64,000 bases of DNA, from contig JABTTZ010000001.1 in NCBI GenBank assembly GCA_015075625.1, positions 558,001 to 622,000 of the forward strand, given 5' to 3'. Origin of the DNA: Anaerolineales bacterium. GTDB taxonomy: Bacteria > Chloroflexota > Anaerolineae > Aggregatilineales > UBA2796. The position numbers and the translations under genes were made by a program. The notes beneath the pieces are model-generated. The model made no database searches. It was not told where the DNA came from and saw only the letters and a list, made by a program, of their open reading frames with translations. Positions 34,818 through 43,910 of the stretch are shown piece by piece; positions within the stretch are counted from its first letter, which is position 1, and each line of letters starts with the position of its first letter.

Positions 34818-36866
34818 CTAACGTATCCAGATAGGGTCGGAGACATCCGCCGCATCGCGGATCATCAACCGCCGCCCATTCTGCACATCAACGACGATTA
34901 ATTTGTTCATTTTACCATCGTTTGCCAAGCCAACTCCCGCCGCAAAGCGCCCCGTTGGGGAAAGAATCGCGTTGGGCATCACCACAGGCACACCCTGAAA
35001 GGCTGCTGCTGCCGCCTCGCCCACCGTCCCCCGCGCCCGAATCACCGTGCTGCCATATGCCCAGCCGATGTTTTCAAGATAAACCGCCGCCCCCCCGCCG
35101 ATGCCCGGCAAGCCGCCCGGAAGCGGGCGCACATCGAGAATCGGCGCGGCAGAGAGCGCCAAGACCGCCCGTTCCCGCCCGTCACTGGCAAGCAGCGCCC
35201 ACCCCGCCCCTTCCCTTGCCCCGTAAAACAGCGCATTTAAGCCCCACGCGGCGGCGGCTGCCTCCACCGGAGCGCCCCAAGAAGTTAATGGAATACTCAC
35301 CCACAGCGAGAGGCTGCCCCCCCCAATAGGGACTTGTTCAACAATCAGAGTCCGCCGATCTGGGCTATAGGCGGGGCGGGTAAGGTAGCTATCGGAGGGG
35401 GCGGCGTAGACAAGGCGCGGCGTGGGGAGGACGCCCGCTATCAGCGGCAAACTGACCGTGTAGAGCGCATTCCCCTGCACGTAAGCGATCTCGCCGCCAT
35501 CCGAACGCCATGTGGGGAACGCTCCCGCCGCCGTATCCAGTGTTGCTAAGAGGCGCGATCCGGCAATGCCCGGCACATCGTCGGGGATGGGCGTCTCGCG
35601 GAAACCGGCTGGTGTGGGGGTGGGCGCTTCGTTCACCCTGTGTAAGGGGAGGAGGATCAACCGCTGCCCCATCGCCACAACCACCGAACGCCGATCCGCG
35701 CTGACGCCGAACGCTGCCACATTTTCGGGGAGGGTTGTCATTTGTTGAATGGGCTGTACGCCGCTGCCCGGGAGTTGGAACACCTGCCGAACCCCATTTT
35801 CGGCGCGGGCAAGGAAGAACAGATCGCCATCCATTGCCAATGTTCCGGCAATGTTCATCGGCGGCGCCCCCCACGCCAGGCGTGTCACCCGCTGGATCGG
35901 CGCGTAATCTTCCGACGCTGTTGCTGGTTCAATGAAGATGGGCGTCCCGCTGGTGATGTACACAAGGTGCGTCCCCTCGGCAATCCATTCGGCGCGGGCG
36001 TCGATCTCCGTCCCGCCCACCGCGCTGACCTCCCCGCTCCCCAGAATGGCAATGGGCGTCCCTTGCCCTTCATTCAGTTCGTGGTAAAAGGCTCGGATCG
36101 TCCCATCAAGGGTGTGGGTCAGCTTCGTGAAATGTCCGTCTGGTTTCTCCCACGCCACCATCAGGCGGGTTTCCCCCTCGCTTATGGTATTAATCACATT
36201 CAGGCGCAGCAGCCCACCCATCGCCGGAGCGAGGATAAGGCTATTATCATCCAGCCACGCCGCCTCAGCGGGGCGATCCACAACGGCGGTGCGGGTGACG
36301 CTCTGCGGGCTACCGTTCGTTTTGGTCACGGTGAACACCGTCCAGGTGTCGTTCACATCTTGAACGGCAAGCCGTCCGCCATTGGGGGCAATCGTCAGGT
36401 TGGTGTAGAGCCGATCTGTGAAATCAGTGTAGATCGGCGCACCGTCGGCGCCGGGAAAGGCAACGCGGACGCCCCCCGCCACAATGTAGCTGATCGTGAT
36501 TCCATCAGGCGACCAAACCAGTGTCCGATCTGTCGGGGCAAGGGCGGCTGGGGGGAGCGCGTCAGCGTCGAGTTGGGCGCGGCGGGCATCCTGAAGCGAG
36601 CCGATCCACACCTGCCCATCTTCGGTGCGGTAGACCGCCCACAGCCCATCGGGAGCAAGGTCAAAATCCAGCACACGGAGATCGGGATCGCTCAGCGGTG
36701 TTGGTTGGGCGGTTTGCGCGTCGTAGCAGATCAGCCGCCCGCCAGCGAGGGCGCACAGCGGCGCGGGCAGACGGGGACGGCGCTCGCGATCATCTTGGGC
36801 GCGGGCGGGGTAGGCGGTAAGCGTCGTAAGCATGGTTACGATGAGTAAGACGATCCCTTTACGCAT
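34818..36866 (-). CDS. Exported WD40/TolB-like beta-propeller protein
   Basis: A 682-residue secreted protein with a signal peptide ending YPARAQDD (about residue 23). Many repeats of the TolB/WD40-like PD40 kind are visible: DLAPDGLWAVYRTEDGQVWI, VWSPDGITISYI, APNGGRLAVQD, TWRSDGGEIAYVQGNALYTV, YSPDRRTLIVEQ. Such propellers usually bind proteins or ligands and report state; no catalytic motif was seen. Its first codons overlap the end of the rRNA methyltransferase gene by 8 bases, and a response regulator follows, so it could be a sensor arm for that regulator (inference). Confidence 0.82.
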   Translation of the reverse strand: MRKGIVLLIVTMLTTLTAYPARAQDDRERRPRLPAPLCALAGGRLICYDAQTAQPTPLSDPDLRVLDFDLAPDGLWAVYRTEDGQVWIGSLQDARRAQLDADALPPAALAPTDRTLVWSPDGITISYIVAGGVRVAFPGADGAPIYTDFTDRLYTNLTIAPNGGRLAVQDVNDTWTVFTVTKTNGSPQSVTRTAVVDRPAEAAWLDDNSLILAPAMGGLLRLNVINTISEGETRLMVAWEKPDGHFTKLTHTLDGTIRAFYHELNEGQGTPIAILGSGEVSAVGGTEIDARAEWIAEGTHLVYITSGTPIFIEPATASEDYAPIQRVTRLAWGAPPMNIAGTLAMDGDLFFLARAENGVRQVFQLPGSGVQPIQQMTTLPENVAAFGVSADRRSVVVAMGQRLILLPLHRVNEAPTPTPAGFRETPIPDDVPGIAGSRLLATLDTAAGAFPTWRSDGGEIAYVQGNALYTVSLPLIAGVLPTPRLVYAAPSDSYLTRPAYSPDRRTLIVEQVPIGGGSLSLWVSIPLTSWGAPVEAAAAAWGLNALFYGAREGAGWALLASDGRERAVLALSAAPILDVRPLPGGLPGIGGGAAVYLENIGWAYGSTVIRARGTVGEAAAAAFQGVPVVMPNAILSPTGRFAAGVGLANDGKMNKLIVVDVQNGRRLMIRDAADVSDPIWIR

Positions 36867-37671
36867 GGTCTGTTCTCACCACAAAGGCGATCTCCGTAGA
36901 AAAGCGTAGCGGCGTGACCTTCCATCCCCGTCCGGCAATCAGCGCGTTGAAGTGCGTCTCATAGCTTGCCGCCATGCCCTTCCCCCGCCCGCCAAGGCTC
37001 TGCGCCGGATACGACACGACGATCCACCGCGCCCGCAGCCGATCCAGCAGGATGCGTCCGGCATCTTTGGCAAGCTGCTCCAAACAGGGAATCGCCTTGA
37101 GGACGAAGGCGAGATCGGCAGCAGGGAGCGGATCGCGCAGGGCATCGGCAAGGTGCGCCTCCCCGTTGATGCCCAAGACGCGAAAGGCGCCGTTTAAAAA
37201 GGTGATCATATCCTCATAAACATCAAACGCTTGATAGTGTATTTCCGGCGGGAGCGGCATGAAGGGAATCATGAGTGGGTTCAACCCACAGGCAACGTCG
37301 ATCACTTGCCGAACGGGATCGGTGATTGCGCCGAAGATTGCCGTGTAAAAGTCAGTCATAATCGGCAGGCGTTCCCGCGTGCTGGCGTGCAGCCGGAGAA
37401 TCGCCTGAATGGTTTCCTTGCCGGAGTCGCGATCTGTGGCTTGGGCAAGGGTCATTTGCCACAGGGTGTAGGGGATTTCCGCGCCGAAATAAGCAGCCCC
37501 CACCTGATGCAGTTTGTTCTTCGTCGCCTTGATCGCCTCTTTCAGCGAGGGACGTTTCGCCAGTTCCGCCGCGCCAACCGCCCGTATTAGCCCCTTATGG
37601 ACGGCGTGATACTTGGCGCTCTCTCGCACGGCGAGGACGATCCGTTCCAGTGGGTCGTTCGGATCGCTCAT
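36859..37671 (-). CDS. 16S rRNA methyltransferase of the FmrO/ArmA/Rmt family
   Basis: Homologue of the SAM-dependent methyltransferases that modify N7 of G1405 in 16S rRNA and give high-level resistance to 4,6-disubstituted aminoglycosides. A 270-residue chain shows the helical N-terminal domain (KNKLHQVGAAYF, then LRLHASTRERLPIMTDFYTA), motif I VIDVACGLNPLMIPF, the LLK-like segment VLKAIPCLEQLA and the hallmark VVSYPAQSLGGRGKGM. These blocks line up in order with ArmA and RmtB. The ATG overlaps the stop of the TGT-like gene (ATGA). No aminoglycoside biosynthesis or mobile genes are adjacent, so this looks like a resident gene. Activity is inferred, not shown. Confidence 0.88.
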   Translation of the reverse strand: MSDPNDPLERIVLAVRESAKYHAVHKGLIRAVGAAELAKRPSLKEAIKATKNKLHQVGAAYFGAEIPYTLWQMTLAQATDRDSGKETIQAILRLHASTRERLPIMTDFYTAIFGAITDPVRQVIDVACGLNPLMIPFMPLPPEIHYQAFDVYEDMITFLNGAFRVLGINGEAHLADALRDPLPAADLAFVLKAIPCLEQLAKDAGRILLDRLRARWIVVSYPAQSLGGRGKGMAASYETHFNALIAGRGWKVTPLRFSTEIAFVVRTDHA

Positions 37672-38774
37672 ACACCCTCCCGTAAGATAGCGATCAGGCG
37701 CGTCATTGTCCGCAGGTTATGCATCGTGGCAAAGCGTTGGAAGGTTGAATCCCCGATCTTGAACAGGTGATGGATATAGCCAAGCGGGTAACGCTGGCAA
37801 ACGGGGCAGTCACAGGCGCTATCAATGGGCTGCCCATCTTTCAGGTGTTTTTTGTCGTCGGCATAGATGTAGCGCAGCCAATCGCCGCCGCGACGGGGAT
37901 CGCCGTCGATCACGTACAGCCGCCCATGACGGGCATCGCGGGTGGGCATGGCGCTGTCGAAGATGGGGTAGCCGAGGGCATGGCACGTCCAGACGTTTTT
38001 GGGGTGTCCCACGCCCAGCGCGTGCATGGGGTAGCCGCGGGGGATCAGGTCGCGGGTATAGCCCAGAATCTCGGTGAGCAGATTCCCCTCCCCATCCAGC
38101 GGAAAGCCGCCATACCCATAGCCATCGAAGCCAATCGCCAACAGCGCCTCAGCGCACTCCCGCCGCAGATCGCGGGATGCGCCGCCTTGCACAACGGCAA
38201 AGAGCAGCGGGCGAGGGGCATCGCCTTTCCGCCCGCTGAGGATGCGCTCAAATTCCCCTTTGCAGCGCCGCGCCCAACGAATCGTCCGGCGGACGGACTC
38301 ACGCTGGTCGGCGTCGGGGGCGTCGGGGTGGGTGCAGTCGTCCAAGCAGATCACAACATCGGAGCGGTAGCTCAGTTGCAGTTGGATGCTTTTTTCGGGG
38401 GTCAGGTTGATCTTTTTGCCCTCAATGGCAAAGGTTGCCCCCTTGTCGCGGAGCGTCCCCGCGTTGGGGTTCTCGCGGATGAGCGAGTAAATCTGAAAGC
38501 CGCCGGAATCGGTGATGATCGGACGCCGCCAGCCCGTCATCGTCCCTAAGCCGCCGAGGGCGCTCACTGTGGTAGAGCCGGGACGCTGCATGAGGTGGTA
38601 GGCGCTCATGACCAAGCCTTCGACGCCGCACGCCTCCAGATCGGCGCTATCCACCCCCCGCACAACGGCGCGGGTGGCATCTGGCAGGAAGATGGGGAGG
38701 GGCAGTGCGCCAGAGGGCGTCAGCAGGGCGGGCGAGGGGTGGGGTGTCATGCGTTCTATACCATCAGCAGTCAT
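37668..38774 (-). CDS. tRNA-guanine transglycosylase-like protein
   Basis: TIM-barrel base-exchange enzyme related to bacterial Tgt, which inserts preQ1 at tRNA position 34 (368 residues). The first catalytic Asp is in ITDSGGFQIYSL, the nucleophile region reads FDSAMPTRDARHG and the zinc site is CDCPVC followed by a His about 25 residues later. FAVVQGG is also conserved. The base-recognition loop is unusual: GYGYGGFPLDGEGN, where canonical Tgt has GGLAVGE. This may be an alternative-specificity paralogue. No queuosine biosynthesis genes are in the window. The start is ATG 38774 or 38750. It heads the operon with the rRNA methyltransferase. Confidence 0.85.
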   Translation of the reverse strand: MTADGIERMTPHPSPALLTPSGALPLPIFLPDATRAVVRGVDSADLEACGVEGLVMSAYHLMQRPGSTTVSALGGLGTMTGWRRPIITDSGGFQIYSLIRENPNAGTLRDKGATFAIEGKKINLTPEKSIQLQLSYRSDVVICLDDCTHPDAPDADQRESVRRTIRWARRCKGEFERILSGRKGDAPRPLLFAVVQGGASRDLRRECAEALLAIGFDGYGYGGFPLDGEGNLLTEILGYTRDLIPRGYPMHALGVGHPKNVWTCHALGYPIFDSAMPTRDARHGRLYVIDGDPRRGGDWLRYIYADDKKHLKDGQPIDSACDCPVCQRYPLGYIHHLFKIGDSTFQRFATMHNLRTMTRLIAILREGV

Positions 38775-38875: not shown

Positions 38876-38905
38876 GTGGGGGCGACCACGCGGGGTCGCC
38901 CCCAC
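38876..38905 (-). terminator. Hairpin after the RlmM-like gene
   Basis: GTGGGGGCGACC ... GGTCGCCCCCAC, a perfect 12-bp stem with a 6-base loop, 33 bases beyond the stop of the RlmM-like gene. It likely ends the B12 operon transcript. Confidence 0.6.
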
Positions 38906-38938: not shown

Positions 38939-39997
38939 CTAGCGCCGCCCCAACCACACGGTGATCTCGCTGCGGTTGTGAAAAAGCTGCCGCGCTCCTC
39001 GGATCACATAGACCTGTTCCAAGTGTTTGAAGGCGGCGCTGATCAGGTCTTCGATGCGGTCATCTTCGGGAAGTTTGAGCGTCATCAACGCCACCCCTTC
39101 ATGCCGGAGTTGGGGAGCAAGGGCGACCATCAGGTTTGCCGAGTCCATAGCATCCATCCGCATATCGTTGACGATCCAATCGTAGGTGTCTCCCTCGCGC
39201 TGAAGGTATGCCTGAGTCGTCATCCGCAGGTGGCGCGTATCCCGATCTGTCTTGAAGGAAGGGTGCATATCCGCCGGATCAACCGCCGTAACGTACATTC
39301 CCGCCGTGCGCAAAATGCGCGTCCAGCCACCCGGTGCTGCCCCAAGATCAAGGGCAAGTCCCCGTGCTTGAGGGGCAATCCCAAAGATTTTGCAGGCTTC
39401 CAAGAGCTTGAATTCGGCGCGGCTGATCTGTCCGGCTTCGCGGGAGAAACGCCGCATCCCCCCCGCCCAATCGGAAAGGTTCTCCGTCGCACGGGATAGA
39501 CCCACCCACGCGCTGAATTGTCCGGGTACACCGGCAACGGCGACGGAAAGAATTTGATCGGGGTTGCGCACGTCAATGGCCGCCCCGCGTTCCGCCCGAA
39601 TTATATCGGCAAGGGCATTGTTGATATCAAAGGGGGCGTAAGGCAACCCCTCACCAAAGACCCGCGTTTGGACGGAGACAGGCGTTTCAACCATGATGTG
39701 AGGGATGAGGGATGTAATTCCGCCGCGAATCGTCGCTATATCTGCCATCCGCCCATTGACGGAAAATTGGAGATCAACAGGGACGATGTGGCGCGGGAAG
39801 ATGGGCGGGGTGACGCTCCATGTTTTGGTAAGGGTGGCAAAAGAGACCGCTCCCATATCGACAACGATCACACCGGGGGCGAGATCGGCACGTCCAGTTT
39901 CGGGGTGGGCGTTGGGGGCGATGCGCCGGAGCTCGTGGAGGGCATAGCGCAGCGATTCTGGTTGGGCGGTCAGAAGAATGCGGTTGGCATTGGGCAT
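38939..39997 (-). CDS. RlmM-like THUMP/FtsJ rRNA methyltransferase
   Basis: A 352-residue protein with an N-terminal THUMP-like RNA-binding region and a C-terminal FtsJ/RrmJ ribose methyltransferase domain. The Lys-Asp-Lys-Glu tetrad is visible: K in SRAEFKLLEA, D in VNDMRMD, K in LMTLKLPE and E in HNRSEITVWLG. Motif I is LALDLGAAPGGWTRIL. This arrangement matches RlmM, which makes Cm2498 in 23S rRNA. Its first 28 bases overlap the end of the BtuD-like gene, so it belongs to the riboswitch-controlled operon, an unusual place for an rRNA enzyme. The exact target is inferred. Confidence 0.85.
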   Translation of the reverse strand: MPNANRILLTAQPESLRYALHELRRIAPNAHPETGRADLAPGVIVVDMGAVSFATLTKTWSVTPPIFPRHIVPVDLQFSVNGRMADIATIRGGITSLIPHIMVETPVSVQTRVFGEGLPYAPFDINNALADIIRAERGAAIDVRNPDQILSVAVAGVPGQFSAWVGLSRATENLSDWAGGMRRFSREAGQISRAEFKLLEACKIFGIAPQARGLALDLGAAPGGWTRILRTAGMYVTAVDPADMHPSFKTDRDTRHLRMTTQAYLQREGDTYDWIVNDMRMDAMDSANLMVALAPQLRHEGVALMTLKLPEDDRIEDLISAAFKHLEQVYVIRGARQLFHNRSEITVWLGRR

Positions 39998-41073
39998 GAG
40001 GCGTCAATTCTCTCGACTGATGGGTAGGCTGTACGCTCCCCGATTGAATCTGTTACATCAACGGTGCGGAGAGTCTGAATCAGATCATACACGGATTCAA
40101 CAAGGTGTCTATGATTTCCCTGAGCGATTTCCCACCGATCTTGGTGAATAGTAATTCGTGGCAGCCCCTCGGTAGGGGGGCATAAGGCATAGCCCGCCCG
40201 CGCCAACGCCCGTTTTGTCCAAAGCAAAATGGGCGAATCATCCTCACCAACAAGCGCCAGCGCTCCAATGGGTGTTCGGCTGAGGGCAAACCCCCCTGCC
40301 GCAATATTAAAGCGGATACCCTCACTGCGAAAGGCACGTCCCAACTGCCCATTTAATACAAGATCTTCCGGGGCGCCAGCCTGAAAGCGCCCGCCCTCCT
40401 CCAAAAGCCAGAGCCGATCCGCCGTTTGCAGGGCGAGATCGAGATCGTGGGAGGAGAGCAAAACCGCCCGCCCCGTCTGCCGTGCCAAACGCCCCAGCAG
40501 CGCCATAATCTCCGCCCGACGGGGCAGATCGAGGAACGCCGTTGGCTCATCAAGGATCAGCACATCGCCCTCTTGCGCCAAAGCACGGGCAATCAACACT
40601 TTTTGCCGTTCGCCGTCGCTTAATTCGCTGAGGGGGCGGTGCGCCAAACCCTCAGCGCCCACCGCCGCAAGCGACTCACGGATCACCGCATGATCCCGCG
40701 CCGTGAGCGACCCGCGCCAATCATTATGGGGATGACGCCCCAACGCCACGACGCCATAAGCGGAGAGCAGCCCGGTATCGACCCGCTCGGTGAGGACAAT
40801 GGCGATGCCCCGCGCCCGTTCGGTGGGCGTCAGGCGGTGCAGATCGCGTCCATTGAGGCTCACCCGCCCACCTAAAGGCGCTTGCAAGCCCGCCAATGTC
40901 CGCAGGAGAGTGGATTTTCCCGCGCCGTTCGTCCCGATCAGGCAGACGAGTTCCCCCGCCTGAAGATCGAGGCTGATTCCTTCGGCAAGGCGAGAGGCGC
41001 TTCCCCGAGGGCGAGGGTAGCCAATGGCGAGATCGGCGGCGGCAAGAAGGGCTGTGTTTGGATTGGTGGTCAT
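39970..41073 (-). CDS. btuD: Vitamin B12/iron-siderophore ABC transporter ATP-binding protein (BtuD-like)
   Basis: ATPase of a type II ABC importer. Walker A GTNGAGKSTLLRTLAG, signature LSDGERQKVLIARAL, Walker B VLILDEPTAFLD and H-loop LLSSHDLD are all present in the first 255 residues. A C-terminal extension of about 110 residues (from about FNIAAGGFALSR) is not part of the core ATPase fold and has no recognised motif. ATG 41073 is chosen because AAGGAAG lies about 10 bases before it. The open frame continues far upstream of this without start or homology, overlapping the permease gene, and is not coding. B12 as substrate follows from the upstream riboswitch. Confidence 0.9.
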   Translation of the reverse strand: MTTNPNTALLAAADLAIGYPRPRGSASRLAEGISLDLQAGELVCLIGTNGAGKSTLLRTLAGLQAPLGGRVSLNGRDLHRLTPTERARGIAIVLTERVDTGLLSAYGVVALGRHPHNDWRGSLTARDHAVIRESLAAVGAEGLAHRPLSELSDGERQKVLIARALAQEGDVLILDEPTAFLDLPRRAEIMALLGRLARQTGRAVLLSSHDLDLALQTADRLWLLEEGGRFQAGAPEDLVLNGQLGRAFRSEGIRFNIAAGGFALSRTPIGALALVGEDDSPILLWTKRALARAGYALCPPTEGLPRITIHQDRWEIAQGNHRHLVESVYDLIQTLRTVDVTDSIGERTAYPSVERIDASCPMPTAFF

Positions 41074-41123
41074 CACGATCTGGCTTCCTTTGTATTCCGA
41101 CATACATCCCCGCACCCCTGTAG

Positions 41124-41143
41124 GGACGCCCCATGGGGCGTCC
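41124..41143. other. Perfect palindrome between btuC and btuD
   Basis: GGACGCCCCATGGGGCGTCC, 20 bases, in the 89-base gap between the permease stop and the ATPase start. It could form an intercistronic hairpin that adjusts the level of the distal genes. Confidence 0.5.
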
Positions 41144-41162
41144 GGTTGCGCCCGTCCGCCGT

Positions 41163-42218
41163 TCACATCTCTAGGCGGTGGCGTTCCCACCCGCGCCAGA
41201 TGATGGCGATCACAATGGGAGCGCCGATGACCGCCGTCACCGCGTTCAGCGGCAGGACGACTTCCCCGCCGGGCATCTGGGCGATCAGATCGGCAAGGAT
41301 CGCCACCATCGCCCCGATCAGCGCACAGGTGGGCAGCAAATGGCGATGATCGGAGGTGCGAAAAAGCATCCGGCAGAGGTGCGGCACGGCGATCCCCAAA
41401 AAGCCAATCGGTCCGCAAAAGGCAGTGACCGCCCCCGCCAAGATTGCCGCGCTGAGGATAACCGCCAACCGCGCCCGCTTTAGATTCAGCCCCATGCTCT
41501 GGGCGTAGGTTTCCCCCAACAAGAGGGCGTTCAGCGGCTTGACAAGGGCTTGGGCAAGGGCAATGCCAACCAGGGTAACTGGCGCGAAGATCGCCATCTG
41601 CCGCCACGCCACACCCCCAAAGCTGCCAAACGACCAGCGAATGAACGCTTGCACGCGCTCCGCCGCGCTGAAATACATGAGAAGGCTGACGATAGCGCCA
41701 ACGAAGGCGCTGAACATCAGCCCCAAAACGAGCAGCGCGGCGACGCTCCGCAAGCGCCCCGACGCTGCCACAACAATCAGCAGCGCCCCGCCCGCACCGA
41801 GGCTGGCTGCCGCCGCCAAACCGAGATCGCCTAACCACCCCAGACCCGCAATGAGCGCCGCCCCGCCAATGCCGCCCGCAGCCAAGACGACGAGCGCCAC
41901 CCCCAAACTTGCCCCCGAACTGATTCCCAACACGTAGGGATCGGCAAGGGGGTTGCGAAAGAGGGTTTGCATCTGGATGCCCGCACACGCCAACCCCGCC
42001 CCCGCCAAAAGTGCGGTCAGGACGCGGGGAAGGCGAAACTGGACGATGATCGTCGCGTAGACGGGCTTTGAGGGGGCGCCGCCCGTCAGCGCGACAATCA
42101 CATCGCTGAGCGGGACATTCACCGACCCCACCGCCAGCGCCACGCCCACCATCCCGATCAGAACGGCGAGCAAGAACAGCAGTGTGAAGGAAAAGCGTGA
42201 ACGTCCCATCGTATCCAT
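41163..42218 (-). CDS. btuC: FecCD/BtuC-family ABC transporter permease
   Basis: Membrane subunit of the same importer, with about ten predicted helices over 351 residues. Family hallmarks include LPRVLTALLAGAGLACAG, QMQTLFRNPLADPYVLGISSG and the coupling segment GPIGFLGIAVPHLCRML. ATG 42218 is chosen because it lies 17 bases after the upstream stop; a longer frame to 42305 would overlap the binding-protein gene. No good ribosome binding site is visible, so translation may be coupled to btuF. Confidence 0.92.
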   Translation of the reverse strand: MDTMGRSRFSFTLLFLLAVLIGMVGVALAVGSVNVPLSDVIVALTGGAPSKPVYATIIVQFRLPRVLTALLAGAGLACAGIQMQTLFRNPLADPYVLGISSGASLGVALVVLAAGGIGGAALIAGLGWLGDLGLAAAASLGAGGALLIVVAASGRLRSVAALLVLGLMFSAFVGAIVSLLMYFSAAERVQAFIRWSFGSFGGVAWRQMAIFAPVTLVGIALAQALVKPLNALLLGETYAQSMGLNLKRARLAVILSAAILAGAVTAFCGPIGFLGIAVPHLCRMLFRTSDHRHLLPTCALIGAMVAILADLIAQMPGGEVVLPLNAVTAVIGAPIVIAIIWRGWERHRLEM

Positions 42219-42235
42219 CGAAAGGTGTGAGCGTG

Positions 42236-43432
42236 CTACTTCAACTGGACGTAGTAGTACAGGGTGTGATCGGGCAGCAGGTCGGGATGAAGAATGCTGA
42301 TCCAATCCGCCAAGATCAAGTCTGGACGGGTAACGCCGCTCTCGAAGAAATCAATTGCGCCGTTTTCGCCCGTGCGTCCCGTGTAGTTATAGGCCTTCCC
42401 ACTGGCAAAGGGGGCGAATTCCGCCAAGCGGGAATCCACCGCCGTAATGTCTTGAAGGGAGAACACAAAGCCCGGATTCAGCCACACATCGGCGTTTGCT
42501 GCTTTCTCAAAGACAACCTCAAGGCTCAGAAACAATGTCCCTGTGGTGGCGTCATCTGCCCAGGGAGAGCGCCCACCGGCATCCTCCAAGAGGGTGTTTG
42601 TGAAGCTTGCCCCACCGGGGATGTACCATGTCCCCTCATAGGGCGTGTTAAAGAGGACAAGCGGCTTTTCCGCCGCACCCTCGGCAAGCACCTTCAGGCG
42701 GTTGTACTCTGTTGCCACGTCATCAAAGTAGGCTGCTGCTGCGCCTTCTTGGTTATAGAATAGGGCGATGAATTTGATCCATTCGGCACGCCCTAAAGGG
42801 GTTGGTTCGATGAAATCGCCGTTGAGGACGGTGGGAAAGCCCGCCTGAATCAGCTTAGGATGCGAATCATAGTCCGCCGAGCCGCTGCCAAAAGTCATGA
42901 TCACATCGGGATCGAGAACGGCAATTTTTTCCAGATCAAGGGTCGGTCCGCTGCCGACTTCGGTGATCGTTCCCGCCTTGCCAGCGGCAATCACCTCTGG
43001 GGCGTAAGCAAAGGCGAGGCTGTCCACGCCAACGAGGGTCTCCACGACGCCCAAATCGACAAGCGGTGGGAGGTACGTGCTGGACATACTGATAAGGCGC
43101 TTTATCGGAACTTCGATGATGGTCGTCCCCTCTGGCAGATCGGTGGGGGCGGGCGCACCACACTGGAGAAGGGCATAGCGGAAGGCGCTCTCTGCGCCTT
43201 GCCAGGGCTTGCTCACGGTGACGAGTTTGTAGCTGTTGGCGTATTCAACGCTGAAGCCCGTCGCATACTCAACGGTAGCTTTTTCGGGGAAGTAATCTAC
43301 CGCCGCATCGTAGCTGGTGAGGCACTCGGTGGGGTTTTCCCCCTGTGCGCGGCTGGTATGGAGGGCGGGAATGATGGGGCTGAGGGTGAGCGCAGCCAAA
43401 ATGAGGAAAAGAAGGACACGTCGTTTAGCCAT
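42236..43432 (-). CDS. btuF: ABC transporter substrate-binding protein, BtuF/FepB type
   Basis: Exported helical-backbone binding protein (398 residues) that delivers a corrinoid or siderophore-like ligand to BtuCD. Signal peptide about residues 1-28 (ending HTSRAQG). The Peripla_BP_2 pattern is clear: RLISMSSTYLPPLVDLGVV, LVGVDSL, LEKIAVLDPDVIMTFGSG and the C-terminal RPDLILADWISILHPDLLP. ATG 43432 is chosen because AGGAG lies 12 bases before it and a signal peptide follows directly; a longer frame to 43717 runs through the riboswitch and is not real. The cobalamin riboswitch upstream makes B12 the probable ligand. Confidence 0.9.
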   Translation of the reverse strand: MAKRRVLLFLILAALTLSPIIPALHTSRAQGENPTECLTSYDAAVDYFPEKATVEYATGFSVEYANSYKLVTVSKPWQGAESAFRYALLQCGAPAPTDLPEGTTIIEVPIKRLISMSSTYLPPLVDLGVVETLVGVDSLAFAYAPEVIAAGKAGTITEVGSGPTLDLEKIAVLDPDVIMTFGSGSADYDSHPKLIQAGFPTVLNGDFIEPTPLGRAEWIKFIALFYNQEGAAAAYFDDVATEYNRLKVLAEGAAEKPLVLFNTPYEGTWYIPGGASFTNTLLEDAGGRSPWADDATTGTLFLSLEVVFEKAANADVWLNPGFVFSLQDITAVDSRLAEFAPFASGKAYNYTGRTGENGAIDFFESGVTRPDLILADWISILHPDLLPDHTLYYYVQLK

Positions 43433-43503
43433 TGCCGTAAGTGACTCCTGACGGATGGTGAAAAGGGACACGAAAGCAGGCGAACTCGCGGCAGCGGCGC
43501 GGG

Positions 43504-43531
43504 AAACAAAAAACCGCCGAGTGGCGGGTTT
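43504..43531 (-). terminator. Rho-independent terminator (riboswitch expression platform)
   Basis: Minus strand: AACCCGCCACTCGGCGGTT directly followed by TTTTGTTT. It lies between the cobalamin aptamer and the btuF start, so ligand binding would promote termination before btuF. Confidence 0.85.
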
Positions 43532-43565
43532 AGGATGGTGTAGAAATGCCGGGGAAAGAGGTATT

Positions 43566-43748
43566 CTTGTTCCGGTAGACATTCCGCTCGCTCCGTTTGA
43601 CCACGAAAAGATACGAACGACGGCGGTCAGCGGGTAGTCGGACTTCTGCGGTAGAGCGCAGTTACCGTTGCGGGTACAGTGCCGGACTTTCACCGGGCTT
43701 CCCCCAGAGGCGTTCACCTCTCACAACACGCATCCGGGCGTGGTGTGT
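43566..43748 (-). promoter_or_regulatory. Cobalamin riboswitch
   Basis: On the minus strand the conserved core reads GGGGGAAGCCCGGTGAAAGT, CCGGCACTGTACCCGCAACG, a variable arm, then GCAGAAGTCCGACTACCCGC, which are the hallmark aptamer blocks of cobalamin riboswitches (including the B12 box-like region). Boundaries are approximate. It sits about 130 bases upstream of btuF with a terminator hairpin in between, indicating repression of the B12 uptake operon by cobalamin. Confidence 0.93.
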
Positions 43749-43910
43749 TCTGGCAGCCGTTGGGCTATTTGGTTGTGACGTTCATCATATAGCGAATGGG
43801 GGAGGGAGTCAAGGGCTGATCACCCCACCCTTTAGGGCGGGGCTGAAAACAGGGAAAGGCAATTCCCTAACCCCCTCTCCGTGTGGAGCGAAGGGATCAA
43901 TCCGCTATTT

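Follow-up and report, generated by a model that had tools for sequence, protein, structure and literature searches.

A riboswitch-led btuFCD operon with a lineage-specific RlmM-like methyltransferase gene in an Anaerolineales bacterium

The stretch of DNA analysed here (the window) is 64 kb long and spans positions 558001–622000 of contig C1 in a 4.68-Mb genome. Its minus strand carries, in transcriptional order, a promoter-like site, a cobalamin riboswitch, an intrinsic terminator, btuF, btuC, btuD and a gene for an RlmM-like methyltransferase. The features, in positions of the window, are:

43784–43812, minus strand: promoter-like site TTGACT-17-TATGAT upstream of the riboswitch (10 of 12 matches)
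43612–43750, minus strand: cobalamin riboswitch aptamer (RF00174)
43508–43527, minus strand: intrinsic terminator in the aptamer–btuF interval (CCGCC-actc-GGCGG followed by TTTTTT; 5 G-C pairs)
42236–43432, minus strand: btuF-like periplasmic binding protein (PF01497, 67 bits)
41163–42227, minus strand: btuC-like permease (PF01032, 257.5 bits)
41120–41143, no strand assigned: GTAG-tagged REP between btuC and btuD, a 20-bp perfect palindrome, GGACGCCCCATGGGGCGTCC, at 41124–41143 with its GTAG tag at 41120–41123 on the plus strand
39970–41073, minus strand: btuD-like ATPase with a lineage-specific C-terminal tail of ~22 residues (PF00005, 103.8 bits)
40084–40111, minus strand: candidate internal promoter TAGACA-16-TATGAT within btuD (10 of 12 matches), 87 nt upstream of the methyltransferase ATG
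38939–39997, minus strand: RlmM-like 2'-O-ribose RNA methyltransferase (PF01728, FtsJ)
38876–38905, no strand assigned: second dispersed palindrome, in the methyltransferase–tgt interval (32 sites at up to two mismatches, 0 for a reversed-pattern control; no T-run after it)

The preliminary description of this DNA had proposed an operon of btuFCD and a methyltransferase gene overlapping btuD by 28 bases, and every one of these elements is present as an open reading frame with a Pfam match, the overlap covering 39970–39997. The three Pfam components of a BtuFCD transporter occur in the expected order. BtuC and BtuD score below their NCBIfam equivalog cut-offs (189 against 334 bits and 120.7 against 281 bits, respectively), and an NCBIfam search with the btu proteins gave no match to a BtuF model; the name of B12 transporter therefore rests on the riboswitch and the gene order. 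The btuF product is 41–65% identical to the product of the btuC neighbour in relatives. Between btuF and the methyltransferase gene there are only weak terminator-like sites, all of them within coding sequence. The upstream neighbour on the same strand encodes a beta-lactamase-family serine hydrolase of 647 aa (PF00144; 43950–45893, minus strand).

A cobalamin aptamer and a terminator upstream of btuF had both been claimed, and a covariance-model search proposed. This search, over the 64-kb window, returned RF00174 at 43750–43612 with 35.0 bits, above the gathering threshold of 31.5 (E 3.3e-5). No other RF00174 match was reported in the genome, where scoring covered 150 of 296 first-look candidates. 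In an alignment of seven leaders, from the window and six same-family relatives, two-sided changes occur at 17 of 61 consensus pairs, some of the predicted pairs being doubtful (for example columns 3–7 with the T-run), and comparison with relatives thus supports the structure. The terminator claim is borne out by the same alignment, in which the hairpin and T-run at 43527–43508 are kept in all seven sequences. RNAfold gave no significant result for the window leader by itself (z -1.16); what supports the riboswitch is the covariance-model match together with the comparison of leaders. By eye, TTGAC-type sites also lie 5' of the aptamer in the leaders of six relatives.

The arrangement is widespread among relatives. 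RF00174 was matched in 52 of the 61 genomes searched, and btuF, btuC and btuD stand in order at 17 of the 20 btu loci fetched; L125, L129 and L132 have btuF–btuC without btuD, L125 and L129 on short contigs. An Rfam scan given for 16 of the 20 loci placed a riboswitch beside btuF above cut-off at 15 of them, 10 as RF00174 and 5 as AdoCbl-II; at the same-genus locus L119 the riboswitch scores 28.1 bits, under the cut-off. The five AdoCbl-II loci are those of genus g5, in the same family, and fit the related model RF01689 better than RF00174. These comparisons support a conserved riboswitch control of btuFCD, and a B12 import operon with a riboswitch is of an ordinary, known kind: a survey of cobalamin riboswitches counts B12 transporters among the principal targets, with a mean of 4.5 genes per riboswitch (PMC3766115). 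The window operon shares with such systems an aptamer above the gathering threshold, a terminator, and B12-type ABC transporter genes downstream, and differs from them in the methyltransferase gene appended to it. In operation, the leader RNA would bind cobalamin, the terminator would then form before btuF, and expression of btuFCD would be lowered; the aptamer and terminator are shown by sequence and conservation, while the ligand and the direction of switching are taken from the riboswitch family.

The appended gene had been described as an FtsJ/THUMP methyltransferase resembling RlmM. The FtsJ domain and the likeness to RlmM hold, while a Pfam scan of the protein gave no THUMP match. An AlphaFold2 model (pLDDT 90.1) aligns with E. 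coli RlmM (4auk) at Z 29.2 over 328 residues, with rmsd 3.5 and 22% identity; the next fold reaches Z 20.3 over 161 residues. The alignment with RlmM covers nearly the whole length, indicating that an RlmM-like N-terminal half is present and that the predicted structure has the full-length RlmM fold. K197, D278, K308 and E344, which we take to be the FtsJ-type K-D-K-E catalytic tetrad, are invariant in 22 of 22 methyltransferase sequences. The protein thus has the full-length fold, FtsJ domain and K-D-K-E residues in common with RlmM, the 23S rRNA C2498 2'-O-methyltransferase, but differs from it in the low identity of the structural alignment and in its score against the RlmM equivalog NF008734, 85.3 bits under a cut-off of 176 (a cut-off exceeded in 1 of 14 control genomes). 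On the evidence of the model, it is a full-length RlmM-like enzyme, not a certified RlmM. A search of a defence library with the methyltransferase gave no match.

The methyltransferase is patchily distributed. Matches occur in 24 of 151 genomes, own included, of which four (G078, G085, G123 and G141) are weak FtsJ-domain matches that were excluded from the orthologue count; the close type is found in 14 genomes, again with the window's own. Most named relatives with the gene belong to the Anaerolineae, Caldilineaceae and other Chloroflexi, and some to the Firmicutes; 80 of 282 such relatives were included. A class-level search matched 237 of 396 genomes, mostly by weak, domain-only hits; some 60 places were strong, and neighbours were examined for 30 loci. 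The gene belongs to a family of full-length RlmM-like enzymes of Chloroflexi and Firmicutes, encoded behind varied upstream genes, a modest family to characterise.

The preliminary description had proposed a survey of whether the btuD–methyltransferase overlap is conserved, and the outcome was negative. In the 13 relatives with close orthologues (~46–52% identical), the flanks fetched contain neither btuC nor btuF. Across 123 methyltransferase loci (80 named contigs with flanks of up to 6 kb, 30 class loci with ~1.5 kb, and 13 longer stretches; some genomes are represented twice and several contigs end near the methyltransferase gene), BtuC matched only at the window's own locus and BtuF at none, so that only 1 of the 123 adjoins btuC. 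A conserved overlap was rejected, the arrangement being seen at the window's own locus only. In the same genus the upstream neighbour is truB, with a 4-base overlap; elsewhere it is an MFS transporter (g5, another genus of the family) or a Peptidase_MA-like protein (family f8). From its neighbourhoods, the methyltransferase gene tends to sit close behind some upstream gene, and no particular one.

Two other possible links were set aside. ABC ATPases near 24 other methyltransferase loci were considered as BtuD; they are 25–33% identical to it, lack an accompanying BtuC or BtuF, and are read as belonging to other ABC transporters. At the same-genus locus L106 a gene for cobalamin adenosyltransferase stands two genes away from the methyltransferase orthologue. 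This second loose association with B12 was met a single time and was rejected as a pattern, being absent at the other 122 loci (searched with that one protein). The linkage of the methyltransferase to a B12 operon, as far as gene order tells, is that of one lineage and not a conserved design. Separately, at eight Cohnella loci (L199, L202, L203, L205, L208, L209, L217 and L223) an ABC ATPase, 27–32% identical to BtuD, lies ~80–110 nt upstream of an RlmM-like gene, apparently as a conserved pair in that genus.

The overlap itself suggests how the junction arose. In an alignment of BtuD from 17 relatives, all 16 with an intact 3' end are shorter than the window protein by ~22 C-terminal residues, and the 28-base overlap falls inside this extra tail. 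At four same-family loci (L120, L122, L123 and L124) the next gene after btuD encodes a tRNA and is oppositely oriented; at L138, from another lineage, a different ORF overlaps the btuD end. A donor site for the methyltransferase was sought in the window's genome and none was found; truB (L142) lies elsewhere without the methyltransferase, as does L143, the own-genome homologue of the gene that follows truB/methyltransferase in G001. We infer from these comparisons that a rearrangement set the RlmM-like gene directly behind btuD in the window's lineage, and that btuD would have lost its ancestral stop and come to read ~22 codons further into the methyltransferase start, giving the 28-base overlap. 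Given the unique tail containing the overlap, btuD probably lost its stop after the rearrangement, which would have replaced the former end of the operon with the methyltransferase gene.

The 20-bp palindrome between btuC and btuD, also noticed earlier, is real and perfect, and had been thought perhaps to tune the level of the methyltransferase. It recurs at 38 genome sites at up to two mismatches, compared with 0 for a reversed-pattern control, and GTAG stands flush at one end in all 15 distinct copies read. A palindrome, a GTAG at one end and many dispersed copies are the features of GTAG-tagged REP repeats, which have been reported from Chloroflexi (PMC3733652). By a crude ORF call, 12 of 15 REP loci are intergenic; the window's own is one of the three that are not, the crude ORF there overrunning the btuD start. 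The 89 nt that separate btuC from btuD in the window hold the REP, whereas the two genes overlap or are at most 11 nt apart in 14 of 17 relatives (the remaining gaps are 385 nt at L134 and 594 nt at L135, and L128 has an unreliable start call), which argues that the REP was inserted in the window's lineage. That the palindrome tunes btuD and methyltransferase levels, by attenuation or through mRNA stability, could appeal to its position within the transcript, where it would form a strong hairpin, and to the discussion in that paper of REPs as possible terminators or mRNA stabilisers. We nevertheless consider it very unlikely: the palindrome is a GTAG-tagged element dispersed over 38 sites with nothing B12-specific about it, has no room at the btuC–btuD junction in those 14 relatives, and was rejected as a terminator for want of a T-run on the minus strand.

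Whether the methyltransferase is under B12 control, as the preliminary description had it, divides into what the anatomy allows and what the comparisons suggest. Placement under the riboswitch is plausible by anatomy, the gene lying on the same strand with a 28-base overlap and no good terminator between. On this footing the methyltransferase could be part of a true B12 regulon in which cobalamin lowers both B12 uptake and 2'-O-methylation of rRNA or tRNA, so that ribosome modification tracks B12, and the cobalamin adenosyltransferase gene near the orthologue at L106 would fit. Against this stand the occurrence of the linkage in one genome only, the position of the overlap inside the unique btuD tail, and the candidate promoter within btuD, and we regard such a regulon as unlikely. 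A related proposal, that recent lineage-specific rewiring captured the RlmM-like gene and placed rRNA 2'-O-methylation under a cobalamin riboswitch, with B12 scarcity raising ribosome modification, seems to us improbable to a similar degree from the comparisons made here. The methyltransferase orthologues are only ~50% identical, and a lineage-specific new role may exist. No paper joining a cobalamin riboswitch with an rRNA methyltransferase was found in the literature search, and among the matches listed for RlmM, C2498 and riboswitch there was no title on B12 control; if true, such control would tie the modification of ribosomes to the supply of a cofactor.

An independent promoter within btuD, driving the methyltransferase free of read-through from the riboswitch, had been named beforehand as the finding that would speak against B12 control. 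A candidate exists in TAGACA-16-TATGAT, 87 nt upstream of the ATG, and makes B12-dependent expression of the methyltransferase uncertain as far as sequence goes. When the 250 nt preceding the methyltransferase were shuffled with dinucleotides preserved, 31 of 2000 shuffles contained a site of this kind. The 64-kb window has nine sites of this strength, and in a mechanical ORF call five of them, including this one and the riboswitch's own, are followed within 90 nt by an ORF start on the same strand. The site is, however, a consensus match only, and its TATGAT consists of the Y-D codons of BtuD, in an SVYDL stretch common to some BtuD relatives, so that coding constraint may explain it. Transcription of the methyltransferase mainly from this promoter, independent of B12, is accordingly a tentative possibility to which we give less than even weight. 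Of the claim of B12 control, what survives is that read-through is permitted by the anatomy; the linkage is a singleton and has a candidate promoter competing with it.

The reading we consider likely, from comparison of the loci, is that a conserved Chloroflexi-type B12 operon acquired a lineage-specific methyltransferase gene by rearrangement and that the palindrome is an inserted REP. Some transcription of the methyltransferase gene would probably come by read-through from the B12 operon, perhaps supplemented from the promoter-like site within btuD, and the placement of the gene would carry no conserved B12 function. The case serves as a caution that a gene may overlap its operon neighbour through an accident confined to one lineage, betrayed here by the btuD tail and by the absence of the linkage elsewhere.

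Beyond the methyltransferase gene lie tgt, for queuine tRNA-ribosyltransferase, and a gene for an FmrO/Rmt-like 16S rRNA methyltransferase (together 36859–38774, minus strand), which overlap by 4 bases. The latter matches PF07091 with 179 bits and NF000466 with 198 bits, under the cut-off of 250. Only unrelated titles appeared among the matches listed in a literature search on G1405-type enzymes in Chloroflexi. The FmrO homologue is patchy (15 of 101 genomes, own included), and tgt lies directly before the closest homologue at nine loci in relatives (L256, L257, L259–L264 and L267); at L258, where the stretch ends, tgt was not seen before it. Judged by gene order, tgt and the FmrO homologue form a conserved pair that brings together a gene for RNA modification and one related to aminoglycoside-resistance enzymes. 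In L257, L258, L259, L261 and L264 the first FmrO-like gene is joined in tandem by a second paralogue (~33–39% identical), which in L256 lies on the other side of tgt and in the window's genome at a distance on the same contig (G000:C1:1151227-1151997).
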